The notes under the pieces were generated by a model. It had not been told where the DNA came from, ran no database searches, and saw only the letters and a program-made list of their open reading frames with translations. The translations under genes were made by a program, and so were the position numbers. From the IMG/VR virus record IMGVR_UViG_3300030328_002129, positions 1 through 29,959 of that record: DNA of 29,959 nt, one strand, 5' to 3'. The DNA is from a virus. Below, piece after piece: positions 3,432 to 26,635 of this stretch. Position 1 is the stretch's first letter; each line of letters opens with the position of its first letter.

Positions 3432-3838
3432 ATTTCCTCTATTATTATTTCAGTTCTAGGTTGCTTACTATAAATCTTTTCAGCTTGTATTCTGCATATC
3501 TGACTATCATCTAATATCATTCTATCTTTGCCTTGAATAGTATCACATATCATCTTCAATAAATTATCTAAATCAGGTGTGTTTGTATGATATTCAGGAA
3601 CTCCATCTTTTAAAACATTAGCATACTTACCTGTTCTGTAGTGGCTTTTAGGTCTAGGCATATAGAATGTAGCAAAAAGCATAATCTGTCCTTCTAGGGG
3701 TCTTTTTGGCTTAAATCTAGCTATTTGTAGCCATATCTGCTTCTTATCTTTAGCACTTGGATCATACATTCTACCTGATCTAGTGCTTCTATGCCTTTTT
3801 AAAGCAATAGGTTTGCCTTTTATTGTAAACTTAATCAT
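3428..3838 (-). CDS. rusA: RusA-family Holliday junction resolvase
   Basis: RusA enzymes are small metal-dependent nucleases that cut four-way DNA junctions, resolving recombination and replication intermediates before packaging. This 136-aa protein has the signature PDLDNLLK (88-95) followed by DD at 110-111. D89, D91, K95 and D110 have the same spacing as D70, D72, K76 and D91 of the Escherichia coli enzyme, so the active site looks intact. It overlaps the upstream PAPS-reductase-like gene by eight bases and the downstream methyltransferase by four, so it is translated with them. Together with the annealing protein at 6798-7340 it gives the phage a minimal recombination set. Confidence 0.93.
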   Translation of the reverse strand: MIKFTIKGKPIALKRHRSTRSGRMYDPSAKDKKQIWLQIARFKPKRPLEGQIMLFATFYMPRPKSHYRTGKYANVLKDGVPEYHTNTPDLDNLLKMICDTIQGKDRMILDDSQICRIQAEKIYSKQPRTEIIIEEI

Positions 3839-4571
3839 CTAACTCATTTATAGCTAAACCACAACTTAAATCACAGCTAATTGGTGGTTCTTTTTTAAAG
3901 TTACCTGCATTGGGATCAAGTTCATCTAAATATATTCTTTCATCTGTTTTTCTATCTCTAAAAATACTATGTTCTATTTTTCTTTCTATTTTAGCCATTC
4001 TATTAAAATGTTCAGGAAAATCTTTTCTAATCTGATTCCAATAACCCATACCACCCTTAACACATCCTATACAATTATTATGATTATATCCTAATTCATA
4101 CATTTTTGGTAGTTCTATTTGTTTATTCCATAATATGCCTAAACAATTTTCTTTTGTAATACCCTTATCTATTAATACCCAATCAACATATAATTCAGGA
4201 TTATAATTTTCAAACTTTTCTGCTCTATGCTTTTCTTCTACTGTGTAGCCAAATATATGTATATCATCAGGTCTTTGATATTTTATTCTTAATTTCTTTT
4301 TTAATTCTGTTGTGCATTTTGCACCCTGAACACCATTTAAATAACCTGATTCAAATACATCAAAATGATCTTTATATTTAGTAGCTTTTAATATTGTAAT
4401 TTCTTTTTTTATTAATTTTTCTATATCTAATAGAAATTTCCTATTACTTGAATGTTCACCACCTGTATCACAATAAACAACAACACATTTATCACCATAT
4501 TTTTTAATTGCATACATAGCAGCAATAGCAGAAGATGCACCACAGCTAAACCATACTACTGCCCTGCTCAT
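3831..4571 (-). CDS. PAPS reductase / N-type ATP pyrophosphatase-like protein
   Basis: The 246-aa protein begins with a PP-loop-like strand-loop (WFSCGASSA, residues 7-15), a variant of the SFSGGKDS loop of the phosphoadenylyl-sulfate reductase / adenine-nucleotide alpha-hydrolase family, followed by YCDTGGEH (33-40). Cysteines C86 (AKCTTELKK), C167 and C170 (CIGC), C233 and C237 could hold a metal or iron-sulfur centre, as in some sulfur-transfer members of the fold. Family members reduce PAPS, thiolate tRNA or contribute sulfur to DNA phosphorothioation (DndC); I cannot choose among these. The loop differs from canonical sequence (C10 and A12 replacing G and K), so substrate use may differ. 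It sits among DNA-processing and methylation genes and overlaps a lipoprotein gene upstream. Confidence 0.75.
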   Translation of the reverse strand: MSRAVVWFSCGASSAIAAMYAIKKYGDKCVVVYCDTGGEHSSNRKFLLDIEKLIKKEITILKATKYKDHFDVFESGYLNGVQGAKCTTELKKKLRIKYQRPDDIHIFGYTVEEKHRAEKFENYNPELYVDWVLIDKGITKENCLGILWNKQIELPKMYELGYNHNNCIGCVKGGMGYWNQIRKDFPEHFNRMAKIERKIEHSIFRDRKTDERIYLDELDPNAGNFKKEPPISCDLSCGLAINELDD

Positions 4572-15764: not shown

Positions 15765-16868
15765 TTACCAAACTGTTGAAGCTTCAGCTAAAAATGTGCT
15801 GATCTTAAAAGCTTCTGTTGTGCTATTTTGAACACACTCAAAAGGCAAATTTAAATACAAACCACTTTCTGATAAATCTAAAGCTGGATCACCTGTATAT
15901 TGTATTTCAGCAGCTATATTGCACTCCCCTGCTGAACTTAATGTTCCATCACCAATATTCATAGCTAAAGACAATGTAGTGCCACTTATAAAATCTTGAA
16001 TTACATTATATCCAGCACTAAAATCATGTAAATCATCATATTTTATAGTTATATCTCCTGTAACAGTATATTCAGGAAAAGCATAAGCTTCTGCATTACC
16101 ATTAGTATCAAATCCAACCCTATTTACACCATTTGCAATATTAAAATTAAATGATCTTAATACAAATGCTTGAGTAGCATTTGCTTCTACATCTAATGTT
16201 TTTGTACTCATATCCATTATATTAAAATGTGTTGTTTCAGCAGCTACCCAAGAACCAGCCAAATTAGTTTCTAAAGAAGTAGTTGTACTTGCAGGATAAT
16301 CTGCTGATGGTGCTGCTGAGAATCCACTAAAATAATTTCCTGATATACTCAATAAGCCATTATTAGCTGCAATATCTCCTGATATTGTAAGATCAGAACA
16401 TACTGCACCACAAACCCTAATACCACCACCTGTACTTCCATCATACCAACCTATATTAACACTATGATTTGGTAGTGAATTACTACCACCTATAGAAGTA
16501 GCATTACTTGCACCATCTATCTCCATTTCATGAATATTAGAGCCATAATCATTTTCCTGACCAACTAATAAACAATGCTGTGCTAAAGTTCTTGGAGTTG
16601 CTAACATTTCAAAAGGCATTGTAACAGTTCCACCCCTTGCATTTATTATTGTATCAGCAGCATTTTTTACTGTTCCCCTACCTGATAAAAGCCTTGATTC
16701 TCTTGTAATATTAAATGTTGGTTTTTGTGCTTGTATAACAGGCTGTGTTAAATATGCTGTTGTATCACCACCTGTACTAAGATCACTATCTAAGCCTGTT
16801 CCAAGAGTTGCTTCAGATTTTAGCCCATATTTTACAGCACTTACAGGCACTACTCTAGTATCTGCCAT
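15765..16868 (-). CDS. Major tail protein
   Basis: The 367-aa protein (MADTRVVPVSAVKYGLKSE) is beta- and glycine-rich, with long Ser/Thr/Ala stretches, no membrane segments and no enzyme motif, as expected of the tail tube subunit. It has segments typical of tube proteins, such as FNITRESRLLSGRGT near 52-66 and SGDIAANNGLLSISGNYF near 162-179 followed by a strand-rich C-terminal half. It directly precedes the G/GT chaperone pair in transcription order, which is the near-universal order. Its ATG overlaps the upstream 61-aa stop as TAATG, with a GGAGATAA site. Confidence 0.88.
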   Translation of the reverse strand: MADTRVVPVSAVKYGLKSEATLGTGLDSDLSTGGDTTAYLTQPVIQAQKPTFNITRESRLLSGRGTVKNAADTIINARGGTVTMPFEMLATPRTLAQHCLLVGQENDYGSNIHEMEIDGASNATSIGGSNSLPNHSVNIGWYDGSTGGGIRVCGAVCSDLTISGDIAANNGLLSISGNYFSGFSAAPSADYPASTTTSLETNLAGSWVAAETTHFNIMDMSTKTLDVEANATQAFVLRSFNFNIANGVNRVGFDTNGNAEAYAFPEYTVTGDITIKYDDLHDFSAGYNVIQDFISGTTLSLAMNIGDGTLSSAGECNIAAEIQYTGDPALDLSESGLYLNLPFECVQNSTTEAFKISTFLAEASTVW

Positions 16869-17053
16869 TATTTATCTCCTTTTTTGCTTGATTTTACTAC
16901 TACAGCCATGCCTTTATTAATAAGACTTTCAGCATCATCTTTACTTAAATCTACAACTCCCCCTTCTTTTAATTTCTCTAATTTAGCCATAGAAAAATTA
17001 ACTGAGTTTGGATTTATTCTATAAATTTTATCTTCTAAACCTTTTATCTTCAT
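16868..17053 (-). CDS. Small conserved-type late protein, 61 aa
   Basis: The product (MKIKGLEDKIYRINPNSVNF, then LSKDDAESLINKGMAVVVKS) looks like a small alpha-beta fold with a basic tail (SSKKGDK). Small proteins of this kind occur between connector and tail-tube genes in many marine siphophages; I do not know a function. An AAGGAAAATC site precedes the ATG. Its end overlaps the major tail protein start, so the two are coupled, and a role in tail-tube assembly or capping is a reasonable guess. Confidence 0.65.
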   Translation of the reverse strand: MKIKGLEDKIYRINPNSVNFSMAKLEKLKEGGVVDLSKDDAESLINKGMAVVVKSSKKGDK

Positions 17054-17106: not shown

Positions 17107-18531
17107 TTATTCTTCTTCAATCCAATTAGAATTATCTGTATTAAAAGTTGTTCCTGCATGACCATTTCCTGAATAATCTGTTACTGCATCTGTTCCAAAA
17201 CCTGATGATTCATTGAATTTCCAAAAACATTCTAAATCCCCTGCTGATGTGTAATCTCCTGAATTTGATGCTAAATTTAAAGGAACATTTCTATTTCCTG
17301 AATTATATATTGCAGTAATTTCAGCAGCAGATAAGAAATCTGTCCATATTCCAACATAGCCAATGTAAAAATTACCATAATTGTTTTTATCACCAACACC
17401 CACCTTTACTTCTTTTGTTGTATTTGGAACATCAATATATGATCCTGCTGAATATGCACTTAAAGCACTTCCATTTAAATACAATGCTATTGCATCAGTT
17501 GCATTTGAATAAGTTGCACCTATATGATACCAAGTATCAGCAGCTAAATCAGGCAAATCTTCAAAGGCAAAACGCGCATTCTTTATTGAAAATTCTAATC
17601 TCTTATTAATACTTTCATATTCTATAGCCCATGATGCAGTAGAATGTACATACCTGCCTTTAGTAATTATTTCATGAGACTCTGTTACACTTTTAAATTT
17701 AATCCAAAAAGCAAGGCTAATAACACTAATATCTTCTAATTCATCTATATCACCAAAACTTACATATTCATCAGTACCATTTAATTCTAATGATCTTATT
17801 GCAGGAACATAAGTCCAATTAAATATATTTGATGCTGTATTAGCACCTGTTGCATTTATTCCTGTAAATTTATCTGCTAAAACCCTTATTGTAGTAGCAC
17901 CTAAAGCTGATGGTGTAAATGTAGCTGTGTAAACTGATCCTGAACCACTAAAGCTACTTAGAACACCATTAGTAACATCTACATCACTAGCAGCAAAGTT
18001 ATTTGAATCTCTGTTTAGTGTAAATGTTAAAGATAAAAACTCATCAGTTGAAGATACACCACTTGAAACCTGTGATGCTGTAATTGATAGTGCTGGTGTT
18101 AAGCTACTGTTAGCATGAACACATTTAAAATCCATATTTACTATATATTCATCAGGATCATCTTTGTTTATTTCAGTTGATTCTATTCTGCAATTATGTG
18201 CCTTTGAATTATCAGATAGTGTTAAAGTTGGATTATTAGAAATAACTTCTTCTACCCTAGAGGTTAATAACATTATTTGTGCAAAACCTCTATTTTTTAT
18301 ATTCTGATTTTTATAATGAAGTTCTAATGATAAACTAAATTCTCTAATTTCTGAATCTTGATAATATTCAATACTATCACTTCCTGCTGGTTTTATTTGA
18401 AGATATTGACTTGCTTCTGTTATATCTTTAATAGATGAATAAATCTTTAAGGTTTGACCAAATTCTGTTGATAATACACTTTGTAGCTTATTTATCAGTA
18501 ATTCCCAATTATTAGTAAAAGCCACACCCAT
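17107..18531 (-). CDS. Tail-completion-like protein with appended Ig-like and LamG domains
   Basis: The 474-aa protein has three modules. Residues 1-140 are a paralogue of the 144-aa protein just upstream: both begin with an NNWE segment, share EFG, a xxExREFS/YSF strand, LTLSD and a D-F-x-C-x-H end. Residues about 146-241 are a bacterial Ig-like domain (Big_12 type: LTFTLNRDSNNF, VTNGVLSSFSGSGSVYTATF). Residues about 246-440 are a LamG/concanavalin-like jellyroll (LELNGTDEYVSFGD, ISLAFWIKF, TWYHIGATY, LYLNGSALSAY, FYIGYVGIWTDFLSAAEI). The extra domains begin exactly where the paralogue ends. A lectin-like fold on a tail-completion protein suggests glycan binding at the neck or tail. Its lone CGT arginine codon lies in a GCGCG cluster. 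Confidence 0.88.
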   Translation of the reverse strand: MGVAFTNNWELLINKLQSVLSTEFGQTLKIYSSIKDITEASQYLQIKPAGSDSIEYYQDSEIREFSLSLELHYKNQNIKNRGFAQIMLLTSRVEEVISNNPTLTLSDNSKAHNCRIESTEINKDDPDEYIVNMDFKCVHANSSLTPALSITASQVSSGVSSTDEFLSLTFTLNRDSNNFAASDVDVTNGVLSSFSGSGSVYTATFTPSALGATTIRVLADKFTGINATGANTASNIFNWTYVPAIRSLELNGTDEYVSFGDIDELEDISVISLAFWIKFKSVTESHEIITKGRYVHSTASWAIEYESINKRLEFSIKNARFAFEDLPDLAADTWYHIGATYSNATDAIALYLNGSALSAYSAGSYIDVPNTTKEVKVGVGDKNNYGNFYIGYVGIWTDFLSAAEITAIYNSGNRNVPLNLASNSGDYTSAGDLECFWKFNESSGFGTDAVTDYSGNGHAGTTFNTDNSNWIEEE

Positions 18532-18965
18532 TAATTAACATTTCCTAAATGGCTACATAAAAAATCTATTTCTACTAAATAATGCTCTGAATCTTCCTGC
18601 TCTGCTATTAAATAATTATCCAAATTGCAATTAATAGCTAATGTGCTATCTGATAATGTAAGGCTTCTATTTTGATTAATAAGGGCTTCTATTCTGCATA
18701 ATATTCTAAGGAGGTTAATCATATCACTTTTTTCTGAACTAGCCTCCATCATGTATAAAACAAAAGTAAATGAATATTCTCTTGTTTCAGATTCTACATT
18801 TTTTTCTATAAGTTCACTTGAATTATATAAGATTTTTAAAAATTGTGATCCTGCATAATCACCCTCACCTAGATATACAGGAAGTGATGCACCAAATTCA
18901 CTTCTAAAAATATTTAAAAGCTTGTTAGATATATTTTCCCAATTATTAGCGTAGGTAACAGGCAA
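18531..18965 (-). CDS. Tail completion / neck protein
   Basis: The 144-aa protein lies between the connector and the tail tube, where tail-completion proteins that terminate the tube and join it to the head are encoded. It is an alpha-beta protein (ANNWENISNKLLNIF, TREYSFTFVLYMM, DFLCSH) with no enzyme motif. It is clearly related to the N-terminal domain of its downstream neighbour, so one arose by tandem duplication. The assigned start is TTG at 18965; no in-frame ATG exists between the upstream stop (18989) and here, and the Shine-Dalgarno is weak, so the start is uncertain. It ends in TAATG with the next gene. Confidence 0.75.
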   Translation of the reverse strand: MPVTYANNWENISNKLLNIFRSEFGASLPVYLGEGDYAGSQFLKILYNSSELIEKNVESETREYSFTFVLYMMEASSEKSDMINLLRILCRIEALINQNRSLTLSDSTLAINCNLDNYLIAEQEDSEHYLVEIDFLCSHLGNVN

Positions 18966-18967
18966 AG

Positions 18968-19960
18968 CTAAATACCATAACTTCTTCTAGTAAGTTGTAT
19001 ACCACCTGATTCTGCATTTGTTATCTTTCTATGCTCTGAATATACTTCTATTTCCCATATATCAGGAGTTTCACCTGCAACCATAGCAGCACCCTGAAAT
19101 CTAGCATATAAGCCACTATGAATTTCTTGTAATCCACCTGTAATAATTTTATCTGTATCTTCAGAACCTAAAAGTTTATCATTTCCATAATATTCAACCT
19201 TAACCTTTGCTACACCATAAGCACCAGCAGTAGTGCAAGTAATTTTTAATAAATCAAAGGCTTCACCTATATAAGCACCACCTGTTTCTATTATTTCCAT
19301 TGATCCACTACCCTGTATTCTACTGACTTTACCTTTACTATCATCTGCATCTACTTCAAAAGATAGCTTTGATTCACCCTTATTCAACTTATCAACAATT
19401 CCTGTGCCTTCTGTGTTAGTAACTAATGAATGATAATAATCTGCATCTTCTTGCCTATTTTCAGTTCTAAGTAGATTTGATGCACATATATAGCAAGTTG
19501 CTTTAACTATAATAGCATCATATTCTATAGCACTACTAGAATAAGCTGTATTTGCATCATATTGGGCATATTTTGGTATAGGTGTAGGGTATCTTCTATC
19601 TAGTAGATTATTGAGTTCCATTGAAGCATTTACAAGCATTTGATCAAAATAGGTAGCATTGTCTATACCTGCTTCCATCAGCATATCATTAGGATTTTTA
19701 CTTGTGTGGAACACTTGAACAGAATCAGTAGATGCTGAATAATTATATTCATAAATAGCATTAGGGCTATCTGTAACAGCAGTTCCCTCTATTCCATCAA
19801 AAAATAATTGTGTAATCAAACCTGTGTTATTTGCCTGATATTGATTTGTTGTATCTGTAGTTGTCCATCCAACTATTTGTGTCTTTGTATCAAATTGACT
19901 AAATGCTGGATAATACATTTCTAAATCAGATTGACTTGCATATTTAAAATCAGTAGCCAT
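18968..19960 (-). CDS. Head-tail connector with extra C-terminal domain
   Basis: The first about 170 residues of this 330-aa protein resemble gp6/Mu gp36-type connector proteins: YASQSDLEMYYPAFS at the start, LVNASMELNNLLDRRYPTP (about 110-128), and a helix with KATCYICASNLL (about 152-163). These form a ring between portal and tail completion proteins. The remaining part (about 190-330) is an additional beta-rich domain (KLSFEVDADDSKGKVSRI, YGVAKVKVEYYGNDKL, TPDIWEIEVYSEH) not present in typical 100-180 aa connectors. The ATG follows the 24-aa gene with GAAGGAAA upstream. The connector role is inferred from pattern and position. Confidence 0.75.
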   Translation of the reverse strand: MATDFKYASQSDLEMYYPAFSQFDTKTQIVGWTTTDTTNQYQANNTGLITQLFFDGIEGTAVTDSPNAIYEYNYSASTDSVQVFHTSKNPNDMLMEAGIDNATYFDQMLVNASMELNNLLDRRYPTPIPKYAQYDANTAYSSSAIEYDAIIVKATCYICASNLLRTENRQEDADYYHSLVTNTEGTGIVDKLNKGESKLSFEVDADDSKGKVSRIQGSGSMEIIETGGAYIGEAFDLLKITCTTAGAYGVAKVKVEYYGNDKLLGSEDTDKIITGGLQEIHSGLYARFQGAAMVAGETPDIWEIEVYSEHRKITNAESGGIQLTRRSYGI

Positions 19961-19962
19961 TT

Positions 19963-20037
19963 TTATTTCCTTCTTTTAGGTGTTTTCTTTTTAGGTCTGC
20001 CTACCTTTTTACCATAAGTTCCTGTTCCTTTTGGCAT
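19963..20037 (-). CDS. Tiny basic peptide, 24 aa, GRPKKK motif
   Basis: An ATG at 20035-20037 overlaps the preceding stop as TAATG, with AGGA upstream. The product starts MPKGTGTYGKKVGRP, followed by KKKTPKRRK: 11 of 24 residues are lysine or arginine. VGRPKKK resembles an AT-hook core. I recall similar MPKG-TYG-GRP peptides at the same position in other marine phages, so I think it is real and conserved. Its final codons double as the Shine-Dalgarno of the connector gene. A DNA-binding or head-associated role is inference. Confidence 0.7.
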   Translation of the reverse strand: MPKGTGTYGKKVGRPKKKTPKRRK

Positions 20038-21575
20038 TATTTTAATCCTATTACTTCAATTACTGCATTAATTTTACTATTACAACTTCTTCCTGCTACC
20101 TGCACTATAGAATTACCTGCTGTTGTTGTAAATTCATTACCACCTGCATGAGCAGTTCCATAATTAGCATCTACAACAAAATTAGCATTTGGTGGACATC
20201 CTTGCAAATCAATAGCACCTGTTTCATAATTTATTGTTCCATTACAAGCACCTAGTATATTTCCATGCCCATCATCATAAAAGAAAGCACTTGTATTTGG
20301 TATTGATACATTTGATTTTGGATTATTTATAGTATCTACAGGAAGTTTTGCAGGAACAGCAGCTTCTATATCTCCTACAGCCATGCTAATAGCACCAACT
20401 CCAAAAGGTGTTGTTCCACTTGCAGGTGCAGATATTGCTATTGCTGATGTTGATAAATGCTGTCCTGATGTAAATCTTATATCACCTGAAACTATAGCAC
20501 AATGAACCTTTTTATTTAACAAGTTAGAACTTGTTGTATAAAATTGAGCATCTAATGCTGCTTGAATCTTTTGTATCAAGCCATTAGTTCCACCAAAATT
20601 ACCATTAGAAGAATCTGTAGTAAAACTTAAAGTATGATCTGATCCACCATCTACTGCAATATCAAAAGCATAAGCAGTTGATGCTGCCAACCCTGTTTTA
20701 GTTGAAGCTGTGATTCCTGAAAGCCCTAATTCTTGATACCCTGCTTCATAAAATTTACCTGAAACTGATCCTGCTACTATACCATCTGCTTCACCTTCTG
20801 TTCTACCATAACCAAAAAAGTTCATACACTTAAATCTACCTGAAGCATCTGTTTGAGCAGTAGAAAACTTATCAAAATCTGCATAAGCATTAAAAAATGG
20901 AAACCTAAGTGCAGTATTATCAGAATGTGATGCTTTAGCTGATCCATGTGTTCCTCTTATTACTGTAAGTGTATCAGAGTTTATACCTGTAACTTCCATA
21001 ATTTCATTTTCTACTCTTATTAAATCACCTACTTTAAAAAAATCTCCATCATCTACATCTATTTCTGTTTCAGTTCCATCAATAGCTTCTGCTGCTAATT
21101 GTGCATCACTACCAGCAGGATTATCAACTGCAACATATAAAACAGGTGAAGAAATATCTCTTTCAGGTGCTTGATTTGTTAGCTGATAAGCATTTGCACC
21201 TGAAGCATCAGTAGAACCAAAGTTTATCTGCCTAAAATTTGGTAGCATCATATAATCACCAACAGCTAATAAGAATGTTTGATTAGATAAACCACCTGCA
21301 CCATCTGCATTAGTATCAGGAGTTCCATCAGCCCATTGTTCTGTTCTAATTTGTATTTCAGCAGATACTATGCCTGTGTTTTTAATTATCAATGTTTTAC
21401 AATCTTCTAAAACAGATTGACCTTTTGAGCCACCAAGCACTAATGTAATAAAACCATTCACATTATCACATTCTTGCCTTACATTAAAAACATCTTCATA
21501 CTGCCCTGATTTTGTTGCAGTTAAAGTATCTCCCCTTCCTGTTGTTATATTTGTTGTTGTTGTGAAATTTGGCAT
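20037..21575 (-). CDS. Structural (virion) protein, 512 aa
   Basis: This protein is beta-rich and rich in G, S, T, N and D, with no enzyme motif. The N-terminal 130 residues (NITTGRGDTLTATKSGQYEDVF, FITLVLGGSKG, AVGDYMMLPNFRQINFG) look like a virion domain; around 165-220 a small barrel (EIDVDDGDFFKVGDLIRVENEIM, VTGINSDTLTVIRGTHGS) is of the kind found in tail and decoration proteins; the C-terminal part (LQGCPPNANFVVDANYGTAHAGGN) is again beta-rich. The position between fibre-like genes and the connector fits a neck, decoration or fibre-base component. I cannot choose between these. Confidence 0.7.
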   Translation of the reverse strand: MPNFTTTTNITTGRGDTLTATKSGQYEDVFNVRQECDNVNGFITLVLGGSKGQSVLEDCKTLIIKNTGIVSAEIQIRTEQWADGTPDTNADGAGGLSNQTFLLAVGDYMMLPNFRQINFGSTDASGANAYQLTNQAPERDISSPVLYVAVDNPAGSDAQLAAEAIDGTETEIDVDDGDFFKVGDLIRVENEIMEVTGINSDTLTVIRGTHGSAKASHSDNTALRFPFFNAYADFDKFSTAQTDASGRFKCMNFFGYGRTEGEADGIVAGSVSGKFYEAGYQELGLSGITASTKTGLAASTAYAFDIAVDGGSDHTLSFTTDSSNGNFGGTNGLIQKIQAALDAQFYTTSSNLLNKKVHCAIVSGDIRFTSGQHLSTSAIAISAPASGTTPFGVGAISMAVGDIEAAVPAKLPVDTINNPKSNVSIPNTSAFFYDDGHGNILGACNGTINYETGAIDLQGCPPNANFVVDANYGTAHAGGNEFTTTAGNSIVQVAGRSCNSKINAVIEVIGLK

Positions 21576-25735: not shown

Positions 25736-26635
25736 TTAAGATACATCTGATGTTAAAGATACAGCAAATAAATCTTTTATCATAGTTTCACCCCAAAATC
25801 CTGTAGCAACAACTTCTGTTGCTCTTTTTGCAGCATTTCTTTGTTCTTCTATTCTAATAAGACCATCTACACCAATACCTACACCAAAAGCACCAGCACT
25901 AAATGCACAACCTTCTTCATCATCTCCTGATATTTCAGTTATTTGTGGAGAAGTATATACATCAAAACCTGCTAACCTTGTTACAAATCCATTAGTTGCA
26001 AGTTCTTGTCCTTGAGCCATTCCAAATGAAGAATAAGGTTTAGCATTAGAACCTGTTACAGCTACATCTGTAATTAACTTTCTAACACCTTTTGCACCCC
26101 ACACCTGCTTTGTTCCAAGTGCTAAATTTAAAGGTGCTGGTGCGCCATTTGCATTTAACAATCTTAAACAATCAAATATGTGAGATAATGCTAAAGTTGT
26201 ACCTGCACCACAAGCATCACTTGTCAATGAACCTGCTGCAAATAAATTAGCAATATCATCATCTAACCTCATAGCAACTGCATTACCAATCACTGCACCT
26301 GCTGTTTCTTTTAAACTTCCTGCACCATAACCCATTTGAGAAAGGTCTGTAATATCAACCTGTATTCCATGCTCTCCAATAGTAGCAGTTCTTGCTGTAG
26401 TAGCAAGTGCCTGAGCAGTTCCTGCTGTTCCTTCTGTTAATGCAGGAACATCTGCAAGTGCCACAGCAGTCCAATCAGAAAATTCAACTGATCCTGTTCC
26501 TTGTGCTGCCTGTTTTGATGTTACCAATGGAAGAAAGACATTTGTCTTATTAAATGCTACAACAGCATCTCCTATTGTCATTCCAATACCACCTGCTAAT
26601 GTGCTTGTAGTAGTTGCACCATCACTTAAAGCCAT
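25736..26635 (-). CDS. Major capsid protein (HK97 fold likely)
   Basis: The 299-aa protein is Ala-, Gly- and Thr-rich and has the look of HK97-fold capsid proteins from marine phages: an N-terminal arm, the beta-hairpin FSDWTAVALADVPALTEGT (about 52-70), GEHGIQVDITDLSQMGYG (88-105), a long helix (AVIGNAVAMRLDDDIANLF) and the C-terminal strands FDVYTSPQITEI and IRIEEQRNAAKRATEVVATGFWG. It follows scaffold-like genes and precedes the lysis and tail blocks. Two Shine-Dalgarno sites (GAGG at 26640-26660 region) support high expression. No decoration protein is separately recognisable. One CG is at 26143 (in a GCGC). Confidence 0.9.
   Translation of the reverse strand: MALSDGATTTSTLAGGIGMTIGDAVVAFNKTNVFLPLVTSKQAAQGTGSVEFSDWTAVALADVPALTEGTAGTAQALATTARTATIGEHGIQVDITDLSQMGYGAGSLKETAGAVIGNAVAMRLDDDIANLFAAGSLTSDACGAGTTLALSHIFDCLRLLNANGAPAPLNLALGTKQVWGAKGVRKLITDVAVTGSNAKPYSSFGMAQGQELATNGFVTRLAGFDVYTSPQITEISGDDEEGCAFSAGAFGVGIGVDGLIRIEEQRNAAKRATEVVATGFWGETMIKDLFAVSLTSDVS

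Follow-up and report, generated by a model that had tools for sequence, protein, structure and literature searches.

A pair of predicted tail-terminator genes, one with an Ig-like and LamG extension, in an uncultured phage

The locus and its two terminator-like proteins

The window analysed here is the whole 29,959-nt stretch of an IMG/VR virus record (IMGVR_UViG_3300030328_002129), and its structural genes all lie on the minus strand. A short protein, P2, and a long one, P1, are encoded side by side between a connector-like gene and the genes for a 61-aa protein and the tail tube (Table 1). The first-pass annotation had described two adjacent genes with a homologous domain, and this was borne out, with 48 of 140 residues identical (34%, E = 3e-24, BLASTP) over a shared part that spans residues 1-140 of P1. 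The P2 stop codon and P1 start codon overlap in TAATG, so translation of the two genes is likely coupled. The placement of a terminator gene between connector and tube genes follows the order seen in both the window and its relatives, with the connector and tube roles themselves assigned from position and weak family matches. The 330-aa connector-like protein gave no family match in PHROG or Pfam, and the 61-aa protein is retained in most relatives. When genome contigs were scanned with a connector alignment, zero matches were returned and thus no host or prophage was found.

Table 1. Features of the terminator locus in the window
Feature	Position	Strand	Basis or remark
Connector/adaptor-like protein, 330 aa, upstream	18968..19960	-	Role inferred from gene position
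P2, short copy of the tail terminator (TrP)	18531..18965	-	144 aa, TTG start
TAATG overlap, P2 stop / P1 start	18529..18533	-	Sequence
P1, long tail-terminator copy, TrP - Ig - LamG	17107..18531	-	474 aa
P1 terminator domain, residues 1-142	18106..18531	-	Predicted fold and identity to P2
Big_12 bacterial Ig-like domain, P1 residues 146-245	17797..18096	-	PF19078; beta strands 147-240 in the model
LamG / pentraxin-like jelly roll, P1 residues 247-447	17191..17793	-	PF13385 and model
61-aa protein between terminator and tube genes	16868..17053	-	phrog_2616, E = 2.2e-5, unknown function
Tail tube protein (Phage_tube_2-like), downstream neighbour	15765..16868	-	Pfam E = 0.0077, below cut-off

Neither P1 nor P2 matched a terminator family in PHROG or Pfam, and the ‘tail terminator’ family phrog_176 was matched by one single-copy relative of 39 (E = 1e-4). 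Even with P1 left out, a profile of 39 short or single copies recovered both window genes (E = 2e-45 and 6e-34), so the domain shared by P1 and P2 is not a chance match. Six alignment columns that are invariant in those 39 copies are also kept in P1 and in the long copy of a related record, L053.

Structure prediction points to what the shared domain might be. The P2 model (AlphaFold2, with an alignment of relatives) reached a pLDDT of 84 and a pTM of 0.80, and its closest solved structures are the tail terminators of T5 (p142), Mu, GTA, monocin and lambda (gpU); the top-ranked chains are mostly terminators or neck proteins. The best match was T5 p142, with Z 15.8 over 135 residues at 2.2 A. 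The N-terminal domain of P1 (residues 1-143), modelled at high confidence, also matched T5 p142 best (Z 16.1). Both also matched the GTA terminator (Z 14.1 for P2 and 15.1 for the P1 domain) and lambda gpU (Z 13.7 and 13.5). The predicted secondary structure of the P1 domain (H8-24, E29-31, E42-56, E61-74, H81-98, E110-125, E128-140) recurs in the same order in P2. The first-pass annotation had staked its claim on a common fold of the two N-terminal domains, and the predicted structures agree with it. They suggest a tail-terminator fold of the lambda gpU/T5 p142 type, and so the domain that it named ‘tail completion’ is shared as described and is better called a tail terminator, the two terms being interchangeable in some papers (PMC11784142, PMC12886913). 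For lambda gpU and T5 p142, it is established that the terminator forms a hexameric ring atop the tail tube (PMC11784142). The predicted fold and the gene position both point to the neck, or top of the tail tube, where P1 had originally been placed.

The C-terminal extension of P1 is likewise genuine. Big_12 was found at residues 146-235 (E = 4.7e-10, 40.0 bits against a Pfam cut-off of 27) and Laminin_G_3 at residues 251-405 (E = 4.5e-15, 56.5 bits against 27.6), both as originally proposed for the downstream copy. In the model, residues 244-448 match the LamG domain of PAPP-A and the pentraxins, with Z of about 15-16. Outside the terminator domain the full P1 model is moderate (mean pLDDT 67, pTM 0.44, with LamG stretches below 50), so the geometry of the predicted Ig-LamG arms and the domain arrangement are not fixed by it. 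A Foldseek list for full-length P1 was dominated by unrelated proteins with a lectin jelly roll; no function was drawn from it. BFVD entries such as A0A516M548 and A0A516LWB6 gave low-TM alignments longer than 380 columns and may or may not share the P1 architecture. Folds of the LamG/ConA-like kind are also used in protein-protein contacts and assembly, which makes a glycan ligand for P1 an assumption.

Occurrence and origin of the second copy

When queried alone, P1 and P2 found no relatives in viral contigs or in 50,697 phage records, and relatives were therefore collected through neighbouring genes: the tube gene (39 loci), the capsid gene (10), the connector (50) and the connector of a further record, L046 (19). 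A scan of viral contigs with P1 and the L053 long copy returned only L053 itself, and the L046 long protein matched none of the 50,697 phage records. Copies were counted in 37 whole records, using the profile of short and single copies together with an ORF-level search. The terminator is single-copy in 31 of these, which agrees with the earlier view that the arrangement is unusual; two copies occur in the remaining six (the window, L053, L046, L103, L104 and L135).

Two designs make up these six. The L053 pair resembles that of the window, at 33% identity for P1 (E = 2e-66 over 458 columns) and 43% for P2; its genes also overlap in TAATG, and its long copy carries the same Ig and LamG domains as P1 in Pfam (Big_12, 50.2 bits). 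The second type, represented by L046 and found beyond the 37 records in L105/L121 and the fragment L137, has a short terminator of 155-161 aa followed by a TrP-LamG-x-LamG protein of 774-962 aa, with an ATGA overlap in L046. The N-terminal terminator domain of these long proteins is 34% identical to the short copy (E about 2e-19), and Pfam finds two LamG domains in them and no Big_12. Laminin_G_3 lies above its curated cut-off in L053, L046, L103, L104 and L135 as well as in P1. An apparent length of 81 aa for the L121 short copy is a contig gap, since a run of Ns interrupts it (1480-1960), and a real truncation was ruled out.

A maximum-likelihood tree of 73 terminator sequences gives some indication of how the long copies arose. 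The short and long copies of the L046 type group together (96/91), well away from the window type. Forcing every long copy into one clade was rejected by the AU test (p-AU 2.6e-9). A single origin of all long copies was thus discarded, and proteins that join a terminator to a lectin appear to have arisen at least twice, a statement made with caution given the long branches.

The origin of the window pair itself is less clear-cut. The first-pass annotation had suggested a tandem duplication, and the pair is paralogous; a tree with all four window-type copies forced together was neither rejected (p = 0.34, AU test) nor favoured. In the free tree the copies part company, with P1 and the L053 long copy joining L106/L108 (82/87) and P2 and the L053 short copy joining L057-L097 (81/82). 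This placement with different relatives, and not as sisters, would fit a second copy that was acquired from a different phage with terminator and lectin already joined in one gene. We give that history a little under an even chance: the tree supports are modest, the branches are long, the joint placement stands unrejected and the short and long copies of the L046 lineage do group. Either history would lead to the same mechanism in the virion.

Exchange of lectin modules

Comparisons within the L046 group show how the extension has changed on a preserved anchor. Over codons 1-170 of the long copies, pairs with dS of 0.36-0.75 gave dN/dS of 0.12-0.19 in a simple NG86 estimate; the terminator domain of this group is therefore under purifying selection rather than in decay. 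DNA identity in the anchor and short linkers is 80-98%, and LamG1, the inter-LamG segment, LamG2 and the C-terminal part have each been replaced in some pair, with sharp edges and, in many pairs, no DNA similarity between the replaced modules. Such cassette replacement would suit a part that has to follow shifting ligands. In L046 itself, LamG2 (nt 1601-2068) is 90% DNA-identical over 468 nt to the genome's own post-capsid LamG gene, a value that is too low for assembly collapse and that comes from one contig only. L103 and L104 have no recognisable LamG after the capsid gene.

LamG is a recurrent virion add-on in this group, since it turns up at several virion gene positions, the neck being one of them. 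A PF13385 scan found it in about sixteen of 67 records: in the terminator paralogue, in a gene that follows the capsid gene at a short distance (L009, L046, L047, L050, L125 and L127 among others) and in a tail-tip-like protein (L009). In the window it occurs in P1 only. Tentatively, and somewhat short of an even bet, the duplicated terminator may be a recurrent, independently evolved socket for exchangeable neck lectins, with cassettes passing between it and the capsid-side LamG gene of the same genome, so that one lectin pool would serve several virion positions.

The post-capsid LamG genes (L009 3264-4061, L046 2961-3740, L047 7206-8003, L050 4212-4964, L125 4464-5210) possibly encode head decoration proteins, and the window has none at that position. 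The capsid protein of the window (25736-26635) is 86-97% identical in L042, L043, L044 and L046, whereas for most neighbouring structural genes of those records the identity is 28-58%, which points strongly to recombination in the region of the capsid gene.

A proposed role at the neck

The reading that we favour is that P1 is probably built into or onto the terminator ring, where its Ig-LamG arms would make up an accessory collar at the neck that binds glycans. P2 would be the ordinary tail terminator, whose ring closes the tail tube on the side of the head, and would secure tail assembly. P1 would serve as a second terminator that keeps the ring-forming domain as an anchor, with the Ig domain as a spacer and LamG as the lectin domain at its C-terminus. 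At the neck it could be mixed into the P2 ring or stack with it as a ring or collar of its own. As many as six Ig-LamG arms might then project outwards from the head-tail joint, binding reversibly to glycans of the host surface or the environment. The second, independent lineage would follow the same design, with two LamG modules exchanged as cassettes. All of the material comes from metagenome-assembled contigs; the entry of P1 into the ring with P2 is put forward as a proposal, and we infer incorporation into virions, ring stoichiometry and glycan binding.

Parts of this arrangement have precedents. The terminators of lambda (gpU), T5 (p142), GTA and R-type pyocins resemble P1 and P2 in predicted fold and in position before the tube gene. 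In the papers searched, the known siphophage terminators are single-copy and without lectin domains, unlike P1, and where terminators are reported to have additional domains, these contact the sheath (PMC11784142). The neck passage structure (NPS) protein of lactococcal 936/P335 phages is a neck collar protein whose N-terminal ~180 residues are near-identical and whose C-terminal carbohydrate-binding modules are exchanged (PMC6669499, PMC10684548), the same logic of a conserved N-terminus and exchanged C-terminal modules as in the L046 group. The NPS anchor (936/TP901-1) is BppU-like and separate from the terminator, whereas the N-terminal domain of P1 matches the terminator fold instead of a BppU-like anchor, and its module is LamG. 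The whiskers of T4 (fibritin, wac) and Sf14 are accessory neck fibres, as the P1 arms would be, but they are separate proteins held by adaptor proteins (PMC11821841) and have no terminator domain or LamG. Ig-like and CBM decorations likewise place glycan-binding or adhesin domains on core virion proteins of the capsid, tube and baseplate (Douge, lambda, SPP1, 936 TpeX), and the Ig-like domains of Douge bind host glycans (PMC13033339); these sit on the main MCP or TTP copy, in contrast to the duplicated terminator of P1. Lectin-decorated siphophage virions are thus already known, and the new element would be the anchor: a terminator paralogue in this role was not found described in the papers searched, nor was any fusion of a terminator with a lectin, Ig or CBM domain, a weak absence given limited access to subscription papers.

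The same sequence and domain features could conceivably serve other roles. It seems unlikely that P1 decorates the virion structurally, as an additional ring or collar by which the head-tail joint is sealed or strengthened and whose Ig and LamG domains contact virion proteins and not host glycans. The conserved terminator domain and the probable translational coupling to P2 would suit such a part, and neck decoration proteins that brace such joints are known, as with the terminator/stopper decoration proteins of phage 812 (PMC12886913). Reinforcement predicts conserved extensions, however, and the lectin modules are instead wholly replaced between near-identical anchors, which counts against it. 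The window lineage, with only two members to compare, is in line with this, as the LamG of P1 is less conserved than its anchor relative to the L053 long copy (22% against 40% identity).

Slightly less credible still is a division of labour, in which P1 would be the tube terminator, P2 a head-facing (completion/stopper-side) ring and the lectin incidental. The two copies do have separate histories, each being orthologous to its L053 counterpart, and in T4 the tube and sheath terminators are separate proteins. On the other hand, one copy suffices in the 31 of 37 relatives, which have matching connector genes, and in neither lineage, among the records sampled, was a second copy found without a lectin extension, which also counts against this explanation. 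A chimeric contig or chance similarity, the obvious worry with metagenome-assembled virus contigs throughout, was ruled out, to the point of being highly improbable, by the orthologous pair in the separate contig L053 and by five second-lineage records with the same design from several different metagenomes.

Few working parts of long-tailed phages are as conserved as the tail terminator, which, to our knowledge, is not usually regarded as a site for host-binding parts. If a neck collar built on P1 is the correct reading, duplication would free one terminator copy to carry adhesins without endangering tail assembly, and these uncultured phages would have taken that step at least twice. Such an anchor could then be sought when predicting the host range or particle adhesion of metagenomic phages, and the long copies would constitute a natural allele set with the same anchor and different lectins. 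Independent recurrence together with lectin module exchange would go beyond ordinary domain fusion.

Another small module seems mobile between virion proteins in this group. Connector genes of about 400-426 aa (L034 8061-9341, L064, L068, L072, L073, L091 and L114-L117) contain an inserted stretch of some 70-90 residues, GDIIKVNDEYMIITSI...V.RG..GT.A..H, similar to about residues 153-242 of a 512-aa protein of the window (20037-21575), a stretch that matches tail-fibre/virion PHROGs. Elsewhere in the window, an auxiliary metabolic gene of the PAPS reductase-like kind (phrog_424, E = 4e-50) lies at 3831-4571, and a fusion of ParB-like and DNA methyltransferase domains (phrog_498, E = 2e-92) at 1600-2739.
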